Shown in pieces: positions 34,321 through 37,144 of a stretch of 64,000 nt of DNA (positions are counted from its first letter, which is position 1; each line of letters starts with the position of its first letter). Both the position numbers and the translations under genes were made by a program. Source of the stretch: Buchnera aphidicola (Chaitophorus populicola) (GTDB lineage Bacteria > Pseudomonadota > Gammaproteobacteria > Enterobacterales > Enterobacteriaceae); assembly GCF_964058995.1 (NCBI RefSeq), contig NZ_OZ060382.1:310001-374000 (forward strand), given 5' to 3'. Below the pieces are notes generated by a model, which had not been told where the DNA came from, ran no database searches, and saw only the letters and a list, made by a program, of their open reading frames with translations.

Positions 34321-34527
34321 GATTGCAAATTTTTAAAAAACTTTTTTAAAATAAATAATAATTAAATATTATATGAAAATATAATTCTTGAAAAGAAAAA
34401 TATTTTAAATAAAATATATAATTTTTAAATTATTTTAACATATAAAATATTAACATATTAAAAATATATAAAAAAATTTTAATAAACCTTATTTATATTA
34501 AATTTATTTATTTAAGAGAATAAAAAA

Positions 34528-35626
34528 ATGAAAATAATTAAAAAAATGCTAAAAAAAATATCAAAATATTCTTCTAAATTAAAAAAAACTAGGAGATATC
34601 TTTAAATTAAAAAAATATCAAGAAAAATATAAAGAAATTAAAAAAAAATTAAAAAATAAAAAAAACTGGAAAAAAATACGTTTAATTACAAATCTTAATA
34701 AACAAAAAAAAAATATTTATAAAAAAATTTATTTATTAAAATCAATAAAAAATAAATTAAAAGATAATAAAAATTTATTAAATTTGTCTTATGAATTAAA
34801 TGATTTATCCATATTAAATGATATTTCAAAAAATATATCTAAAATTAAAAATAAAATTAAAAATTTAAATTTTTATAATATGTTTAAAAAAAAATATGAT
34901 AAAAAAAATTGTTATATTGAAATTCAATCTGGATCTGGTGGGATAGAAGCTCAAGATTGGTCTAAAATATTATTTAAAATGTATTTAAAATGGGCTCAAA
35001 AAAATAATTTTAAAACAAAAATTATTTCAATTATACATGATGAGTTTAATGGTATTAAATCTTCAACAATTCAAGTGAAAGGAAAATATTCATTTGGATG
35101 GTTAAGAACAGAATCAGGAATACATAGATTAGTACGTAAAAGTCCTTTTAACACAGGAAATAAAAGACATACTTCTTTTAGTTCAATTTTTATTTATCCT
35201 ATTATAAAAAAAAATAAAAAAATAAAAATTAAAAAATCAGATTTAAAAATAGATGTATATAAAGCATCTGGAGCTGGAGGTCAACATGTAAATAAAACAG
35301 AATCAGCTGTTAGAATAAAACATATACCAACTGGAATCATTGTTAAATGTCAAAATAATAGATCTCAACATAAAAATAAAAAATATGCTATTCAACAAAT
35401 TATTTCAAAAATATTTACCATAGAAATGAAAAAACAAGCTTTAAAGAAAAAAAAAATAGATACAAAAAAATTAGATATTAATTGGGGAAATCAAATTAGA
35501 TCATATATATTAGATAATTCTCGTATAAAAGATGAAAGAACTAAATTAGAAACACGTGAAATACAAAAATTTTTAAACGGAAATATTAATAAATTTATTA
35601 AAAAAAGTTTAAAATTAGGACTATAA
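34528..35626 (+). CDS. prfB: Peptide chain release factor 2, programmed +1 frameshift
   Basis: RF2 terminates translation at UGA and UAA. ATG 34528 opens 25 codons that end ..AGG AGA TAT CTT, followed by in-frame TAA as codon 26 (34603-34605). The downstream frame from 34604 is open to 35626. This is the classic RF2 autoregulatory site: internal SD-like AGGAGA, three bases, CTT, then the stop at the same codon as in E. coli, except that the stop is UAA rather than UGA. Downstream are the peptide-anticodon region KHIPTG/SPFN area, GGQ in SGAGGQHVNKTESAVR, and the conserved tail. lysS follows after 3 bp. Confidence 0.95.
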
Positions 35627-35629
35627 AAT

Positions 35630-37144
35630 ATGACAAAACAAAAAATTTTAGAAAAAAAAAATAAAAACAACGAATTTATAAATAGAAAATATAAATTACA
35701 AGAATTAAAAAAACAAGGATTTAATTTTCCAAATCAATTTAAAAAAAAACATTATTTCAATGAAATATATCTAAAATATAATTCAAAGAATAGAAATGAA
35801 TTAAAAAATAATACAAATAAAATTCAAACAGCAGGAAGAATAATACAAAAAAGAATTATGGGAAAAGCAGGTTTTATGCGTTTACAAGATTCAGAAGGAG
35901 AAATACAAATATACGCTAAAAAAAACTCTTTTACATCTATAAAAAATAATTTTAATAAATTTAAAAATCTTGATTTAGGAGATATCATAGGAATTATTGG
36001 TACAATCTTCAAAACTAGAACTCATGAATTAACTATAAATTGTACAAAATTTATTTTATTAACAAAAGCGCTTAGATCTCTTCCAGAAAAATTTCATGGA
36101 TTAGTAGATAAAAATATAAGATATAGAAAAAGATATTTAGATTTTATTTCTAATCATAATTTAAAAAAAAATTTTCAAATACGATCTCAATTGATATCTA
36201 TTATTAGAAATTATATGCATAAAAAAAAATTTTTAGAAGTAGAAACGCCTATGCTACATAATCTTCCTGGAGGAGCTATTGCTAAACCTTTTATTACACA
36301 TCATAACTCTTTAAATAAAAAAATGTATTTAAGAATTGCTCCAGAATTATATTTAAAACGTTTAATTGTCGGAGGCTTTGAGAAAATATTTGAAATTAAT
36401 AGAAATTTTAGAAACGAAGGAGTATCTTCACGTCATAATCCAGAATTTACTATGATGGAAATATATCTTGCATATTCTAATTATAAATATCTTATGAAAT
36501 TTTTAGAAAACTTAATAAAACACTTATTAAAAAAAATTAAAAAAAATTATATAATAAAATATCAAAAAAATACTTTTAATTTTAAACAACCCTTTTCAAA
36601 ATTAACTATGCAAGAATCTATTGTTAAATTTAATAATTTTATTGATCCAAAAGATTTAAAAAATTTTGATCAAATAAAAAAAATTGCAAAAAAATTAAAA
36701 TTAAAGATTAAAAACAAATGGGGAATAGGTAAAATTATTACAGAAATATTTGAAAAAACAGTCGAAAAAAAACTAATACATCCAACTTTTATTACAGAAT
36801 ACCCAATAGAAGTTTCTCCTTTAGCAAGACAAAAAAATGATAAAAAAAATATTTCTGATAGATTTGAATTTTTTATCGGAGGTTATGAAATAGGAAATGG
36901 ATTTTCAGAATTAAATGATCCTGAAGAACAAAAAAAAAGATTTAAGATGCAAATAGAACAAAAAAAGTTTAAAGAAAATAAAAAGATAAAATATGATAAA
37001 GATTATATATTAGCTTTAGAACATGGTATGCCTCCTACAGCTGGATTAGGTATTGGAATTGATCGATTAACAATGATTTTTACTAATCAAAAAAATATTA
37101 AAGATGTAATTATGTTTCCTAATATGAGATTTATTAAAAAATAA
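35630..37144 (+). CDS. lysS: Lysyl-tRNA synthetase (class II)
   Basis: LysRS charges tRNA-Lys. The 504-aa product matches the E. coli length. It has the N-terminal OB-fold (GRIIQKRIMGKAGFMRLQD) and the class II core with motif 2 NRNFRNEGVSSRHNPEFTMME and motif 3 GMPPTAGLGIGIDRLTM. The prfB-lysS pairing is as in E. coli. In a proteome this Lys-rich the enzyme must be in heavy demand. Confidence 0.98.
   Translation: MTKQKILEKKNKNNEFINRKYKLQELKKQGFNFPNQFKKKHYFNEIYLKYNSKNRNELKNNTNKIQTAGRIIQKRIMGKAGFMRLQDSEGEIQIYAKKNSFTSIKNNFNKFKNLDLGDIIGIIGTIFKTRTHELTINCTKFILLTKALRSLPEKFHGLVDKNIRYRKRYLDFISNHNLKKNFQIRSQLISIIRNYMHKKKFLEVETPMLHNLPGGAIAKPFITHHNSLNKKMYLRIAPELYLKRLIVGGFEKIFEINRNFRNEGVSSRHNPEFTMMEIYLAYSNYKYLMKFLENLIKHLLKKIKKNYIIKYQKNTFNFKQPFSKLTMQESIVKFNNFIDPKDLKNFDQIKKIAKKLKLKIKNKWGIGKIITEIFEKTVEKKLIHPTFITEYPIEVSPLARQKNDKKNISDRFEFFIGGYEIGNGFSELNDPEEQKKRFKMQIEQKKFKENKKIKYDKDYILALEHGMPPTAGLGIGIDRLTMIFTNQKNIKDVIMFPNMRFIKK

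Follow-up and report, generated by a model that had tools for sequence, protein, structure and literature searches.

The window, by which we mean the whole stretch of 64,000 nucleotides analysed here, carries the gene prfB of Buchnera aphidicola (Chaitophorus populicola) in two reading frames: a short leader that ends in a premature in-frame stop codon and, in the +1 frame, the body of release factor 2 (RF2), followed downstream by an open reading frame that, by eye from its sequence, we take to be lysyl-tRNA synthetase, lysS (Table 1). The +1 frame matches the RF2 model TIGR00020 with 416.6 bits over model positions 7-353, and this match begins just upstream of the frameshift site, where the +1 frame has a stop, and ends at the C-terminus. 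Neither ATG nor GTG nor TTG occurs in the +1 frame between the last upstream stop and the frameshift site, and the first ordinary start of the +1-frame ORF is TTG 34784. Because no start in the RF2 frame lies upstream of the site, a change of frame is required for full-length RF2; loss of a base at CTTTAA is excluded in the assembled sequence.

Table 1. Features of the prfB locus, with positions counted from the first base of the window
Feature	Position	Strand	Remarks
Candidate weak Shine-Dalgarno sequence AAGAGA for the leader ORF	34514..34519	+	8 bases before ATG; putative
prfB leader ORF, zero frame	34528..34605	+	Start ATG 34528-34530; 25 sense codons (MKIIKKMLKKISKYSSKLKKTRRYL), then TAA as codon 26; ATG spacing the same in 11/11 genus genomes
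A7 run in leader	34540..34546	+	From run length and sequence
A8 run in leader	34551..34558	+	From run length and sequence
A8 run in leader	34581..34588	+	One A lost from the transcript would open the frame
Internal Shine-Dalgarno-like AGGAGA	34591..34596	+	3 bases upstream of CTT; pairs with own 16S 3' end
TAT between AGGAGA and CTT	34597..34599	+	Read from the sequence
Slippery CTT_T	34600..34603	+	CTT at 34600-34602; CTT before the stop in 11/11 genus genomes
Premature in-frame stop TAA	34603..34605	+	Base +4 is A (34606)
RF2 body, +1 frame	34604..35626	+	340 codons and stop; TIGR00020 412.3 bits; SPF present
ORF downstream of prfB	35630..37144	+	504 aa; open reading frame

The arrangement is that of the prfB frameshift of E. 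coli, with a leader of 25 codons, a Shine-Dalgarno sequence 3 bases before CTT, the slippery CTT_T, a stop at codon 26 and a +1 frame that encodes RF2. The initial annotation had described this cassette (25 codons, AGGAGA, TAT, CTT and a stop at codon 26) as kept in full, and every coordinate agrees. The site differs from that of E. coli in having UAA instead of UGA as its stop and A instead of C at base +4, and the earlier reading of the stop as TAA followed by A is likewise confirmed, TAA also standing at this place in two related genomes, G005 and G010. Of the features by which an autoregulatory prfB frameshift is recognised, the window shows a short leader of some 25 zero-frame codons closed by an in-frame stop, a +1 frame for RF2 that has no start codon ahead of the site, the slippery CTT_T abutting the stop, an internal Shine-Dalgarno sequence at the fixed distance and able to pair, with moderate strength, with the genome's own 16S tail, and a stop readable by RF2, which is here the rare form UAA and not the canonical UGA. 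The C after the stop, which makes for a weak termination context, is replaced by A, as base +4 is A in 9 of the 11 genus genomes; since C is uncommon in this group (1/11 genus genomes and 23/55 strict small-genome sites, as defined below), it does not decide membership.

The motif as a bare string proves nothing: AGG-N6-CTTTRA occurs once in the window against a mean of 1.12 in shuffled windows, so that a match was rejected as proof of a site, and the claim is carried by homologous position, frame change and conservation. In each of the 11 Buchnera genomes compared, an ATG precedes the stop by 25 codons, the slip codon is CTT and RF2 lies in the +1 frame, and the comparison of the start of prfB across Buchnera that had been proposed at the outset finds the site conserved throughout. 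The stop is TAA in three genomes, namely G005, G010 and that of the window itself (G000), and the other eight have TGA. CTTTAAA is common to the three, one of which (G005) is the Buchnera aphidicola of Chaitophorus viminalis with an RF2 88% identical to that of the window, and the RF2 tree groups the three together with support of 100/100. The leader itself is not supported as a conserved peptide, as its differences are spread over all three codon positions (301, 303 and 274, summed over pairwise comparisons of the 11 genomes with the last 15 bases left out), and this want of a clear codon periodicity fits a peptide without a function of its own. After the site, the same pairwise comparisons give 903, 591 and 1057 changes at the three codon positions, the second changing least. 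For the three TAA genomes pN is about equal to pS over the 60 codons after the site (27 synonymous sites), while omega is 0.13-0.19 over the rest of RF2; the N-terminal part of the protein thus appears weakly constrained in the TAA clade, and a protein constraint there is not supported.

UGA is read by RF2 only, while UAA is read by both RF1 and RF2. We consider it probable that the window holds a working programmed +1 frameshift site for RF2, at which the stop has drifted from UGA to UAA and feedback persists in a weaker form. The ribosome would translate the 25 codons and meet UAA with tRNA-Leu on CUU in its P site, while AGGAGA would pair with the 16S tail. As UAA awaits a release factor, the tRNA on CTT could slip and re-pair with TTT 34601-34603 (UUU in the message), and translation would continue in the +1 frame to yield RF2. 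RF2, and RF1 to a lesser degree, would compete with the slip, so that RF2 would still repress its own synthesis, with a lower gain than at UGA. Drift from G to A would simply yield another stop readable by RF2 and leave the frameshift obligatory. The RF2 of the window has, besides SPF, Ala at the residue equivalent, by the presumed numbering of the E. coli sequence, to Thr246 of E. coli, and the residue is Ala or Ser, never Thr, in all 63 rows of the tree. The passages available from one study of E. coli report that RF1 does most of the decoding of UAA if RF2 has the K-12 residue (Thr246), and that both factors share this task if RF2 has Ala246 (PMC5373646).

A steady-state toy model built on E. 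coli values from the same passages (ribosome densities of 87 for RF1 and 526 for RF2, and 21% frameshifting; PMC5373646) gives a sense of the possible loss. With UAA and UGA equally fast and an RF1:RF2 ratio of 0.17, the feedback gain is -0.68 at UAA against -0.79 at UGA, in line with the earlier claim that UAA, being read by RF1 as well, makes feedback depend on both factors; it falls to -0.34 at equal speed and a ratio of 1:1. The modelled level of RF2 is 0.93 of that in the UGA case at equal speed and 0.53 if UAA is read three times faster, which agrees with the expectation of a somewhat lower basal frameshifting, and over the ratios and UAA speeds tried it ranges from 0.93 to 0.30. With these E. 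coli values, the loop would be weakened but not broken unless RF1 were about as abundant as RF2.

The stop codon of this site has changed repeatedly among related bacteria. A family search of 392 genomes supplied 102 genomes of at most 0.9 Mb, picked by eye, which with the 11 of the genus itself make 113; six were left out, three with weak matches only (G087, G112, G221) and three with none at 1e-95 (G280, G353, G377). Size, base composition and one named record suggest that these small-genome relatives are insect symbionts. Of their 107 prfB loci, 59 contain a frameshift site, 36 read as a single frame and 12 are unclear. Four of the 59 were dropped, three for a site off the homologous position (G292 and G111, both TGA, and G220, TAA) and G196 (TGA) for ATT before the stop and a leader of 4 codons, leaving 55 strict sites, of which 38 have TGA, 17 TAA and none TAG. 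They span 22 genus labels, with TAA in ten and both stops in two of these ten. Large-genome loci, in a best-scoring and hence biased sample, have CTTTGAC in 30/30, and the difference in TAA between small and large genomes is significant (Fisher 3.5e-4), with the caveat that congeneric genomes are not independent of one another. A tree of RF2 proteins from the 55 small and 8 large genomes calls for no fewer than 9 changes of the stop; this count has no direction, and it is the large genomes and the survey of Prince et al. (2025) that point to TGA as the older state. An earlier automatic count of 137 loci (30 of them large-genome) gave 17 TAA, 63 TGA, 1 TAG and 56 without a CTT site, and was replaced because it counted relict motifs in single-frame genes and missed TTT slip sites. 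Two such relicts in now single-frame prfB genes are AGGGGTATCTTTAA in G159 (L072), with TAA, and AAAGAATATCTTTAG in G235 (L132), the one TAG. Two further candidates, G232 (CTT TGA) and G131 (GTT TGA), were classed as single-frame for a start in the RF2 frame 14 codons upstream. In G131 (L083), where the slip codon is now GTT, an RF2-frame ATG has arisen within TATG next to AGGAGG, which looks as though the internal Shine-Dalgarno sequence were becoming a start site.

The variant is not new in itself. According to the passages available from Prince et al. (PMC12421855), 8,164 motif-bearing genomes have TGA in 98.6% and TAA in 1.4%, with no TAG; TAA sites, which occur in several phyla, are expected to remain sensitive to RF2 and are described as scattered at random without being fixed in clades, and after poly-T slip sites only TGA is found. 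The window shares its CTTTAA stop with the variant of these passages, and Buchnera is not named in those from the main text. Unlike the pattern described there, TAA is common to three related Buchnera and reaches 17 of the 55 strict small-genome sites, far above the published 1.4%, even if members of one genus cannot be counted as independent. The UAA stop of prfB is a real, rare and known variant, which arose several times in related AT-rich symbionts; as far as the published passages show, its concentration in the small, AT-rich genomes of the family and its sharing by small clades go slightly beyond what is in print. The same holds for the sites of G031, G175 and G073 (L135, L140, L095), where TTT-TAA with a strong AGGAGG brings a poly-T slip and UAA together. 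A search by title and abstract of one open-access library found no paper dedicated to prfB frameshifting in endosymbionts. The circuit as usually taught depends on UGA being read by RF2 alone, and lineages that moved from UGA to UAA are natural experiments in how much of the feedback can go before the frameshift is dropped. Sites with UGA, sites with UAA and genes in a single frame all occur among the small-genome relatives. The sharing of TAA by a clade also qualifies the published view of UAA sites as randomly scattered.

TGA closes 33/302 genes in one 20-kb stretch from each of 20 genomes and stands at 38/55 sites (Fisher 8e-19), and in Buchnera it closes 14/256 genes and stands at 8/11 sites (Fisher 8e-8). 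Since TGA is so much commoner at the site than at gene ends, UGA, and with it a stop readable by RF2, is favoured at the site across the group. The clade of the window appears to have moved to TAA, the stop towards which mutation is biased. Among the small genomes the presence of TAA shows no correlation with locus GC (Spearman -0.16, p 0.25), which speaks against AT pressure as its sole cause. The absence of TAG is weak evidence for selection of an RF2 stop, because AT pressure disfavours TAG too.

A different view of the same exchange, unlikely in our estimate and yet the first to be weighed, is that feedback has been relaxed: the frameshift is still needed to make RF2, and its level is left untuned since stops that only RF2 can read are rare. 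Open reading frames of at least 120 aa, chosen by length alone in 244 kb of the window's genome, end in TAA 158 times, TAG 19 times and TGA only 10 times among 187, so that the demand for RF2 alone is small, while RF1 has stops of its own. The 36 single-frame loci among 107 and the A at base +4 speak for a relaxed loop, and loss of autoregulation is reported as frequent in passages of two papers (PMC12421855, PMC13245932). Against this, a deletion of one base could drop the frameshift altogether, as those 36 loci seem to have done, whereas leader length, CTT and Shine-Dalgarno sequence are kept in three species, and UAA is still readable by RF2, with no TAG among the 55 strict sites. The initial annotation had offered a relaxed loop or a weak RF1 as the only options; weaker feedback stands, and what it left out is drift to another stop readable by RF2, which we regard as the likeliest because it is repeated in related small genomes and known at 1.4%.

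If such drift took place, the internal Shine-Dalgarno sequence may have compensated for it. The 3' end of the 16S rRNA is GGATCACCTCCTTA, with the anti-Shine-Dalgarno intact, and AGGAGA forms a duplex with it of -7.3 kcal/mol, equalled or bettered by 2.4% of 3000 random 15-mers of the window and weaker than the AGGGGG of large-genome relatives (median -10.7 kcal/mol). In a post hoc comparison that took the 15 bases before the slip codon and applied the 16S tail of the window to every genome, TAA sites had a median of -10.5 kcal/mol, against -6.8 for TGA sites (p 4e-4 by genome; p 0.035 by genus-and-stop group, 10 against 14; p 0.009 for groups under 31% locus GC, 9 against 11). Within Buchnera, TAA sites stand at -7.3, -6.0 and -6.0 kcal/mol and TGA sites at -4.2 (five genomes), -3.9, -7.4 and -0.4. 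Independent pairs on the tree keep the direction (at a cut of -9, about 2.9 with the trend, 0.1 against and 4 equal; at -7, the values are 1.8, 0.2 and 5.0) and are not significant (median p 0.25 at cuts of -9 and -8, and 0.5 at -7). A tendency of TAA sites towards stronger pairing is thus a lead. We speculate, and hold it unlikely, that the circuit of AT-rich symbionts repeatedly became a two-factor sensor of the combined capacity of RF1 and RF2 at UAA, and that the switch held only where a stronger internal Shine-Dalgarno sequence offset the faster termination. The genome with the weakest pairing of the genus (-0.4 kcal/mol), G006 (L003), also has an A11 run in its leader and the sole TGA-C context, and it is the only one of the 11 without an RF3 match over the cut-off.

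RF2 might also come mostly from transcripts that lack one A because RNA polymerase skipped it. The 75-base leader contains three runs of 7-8 A, omission of a single A would open the frame, and each of the 11 genomes has a leader run of at least 7 A. In the passages available from a study of transcription errors in Buchnera (PMC5574713), single-base deletions are the commonest kind of transcription deletion, over half of them fall in homopolymers and the rate climbs exponentially with run length. The same passages make insertions, rather than deletions, the chief error in homopolymers, put the overall deletion rate at 1.75e-5 per transcribed nucleotide, have just 15 of 70 deletions beginning in uninterrupted runs, and give no case of an error restoring a frame. 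The A runs differ between genomes, whereas CTT and the 25-codon length are constant. Slippage of the polymerase may contribute, and the measured rates speak against it as the main route, a role that we hold to be very improbable.

A weak or scarce RF1, which would make UAA in practice an RF2 stop and thus equal to UGA for the loop, is more doubtful still and was the one earlier suggestion left unsupported. The genes for RF1, RF3 and PrmC look intact in the window's genome: prfA, in which GGQ is present, falls within 367 codons of open frame, and PrmC is over the cut-off in 11/11 genus genomes and RF3 in 10/11, including that of the window. Moreover, the 19 TAG ends, against 10 TGA, among the 187 sampled ORFs would call for RF1. 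That the codon is in truth TGA, or that a base is missing, through an error of sequencing or assembly, is scarcely credible, since TAA is carried by three assemblies, that of G005 at a stated coverage of 343. In one relative, G004 (L012, L023), prfB breaks near codon 300, giving two RF2 matches that overlap (model positions 2-305 and 289-352), as if a base had been gained or lost.
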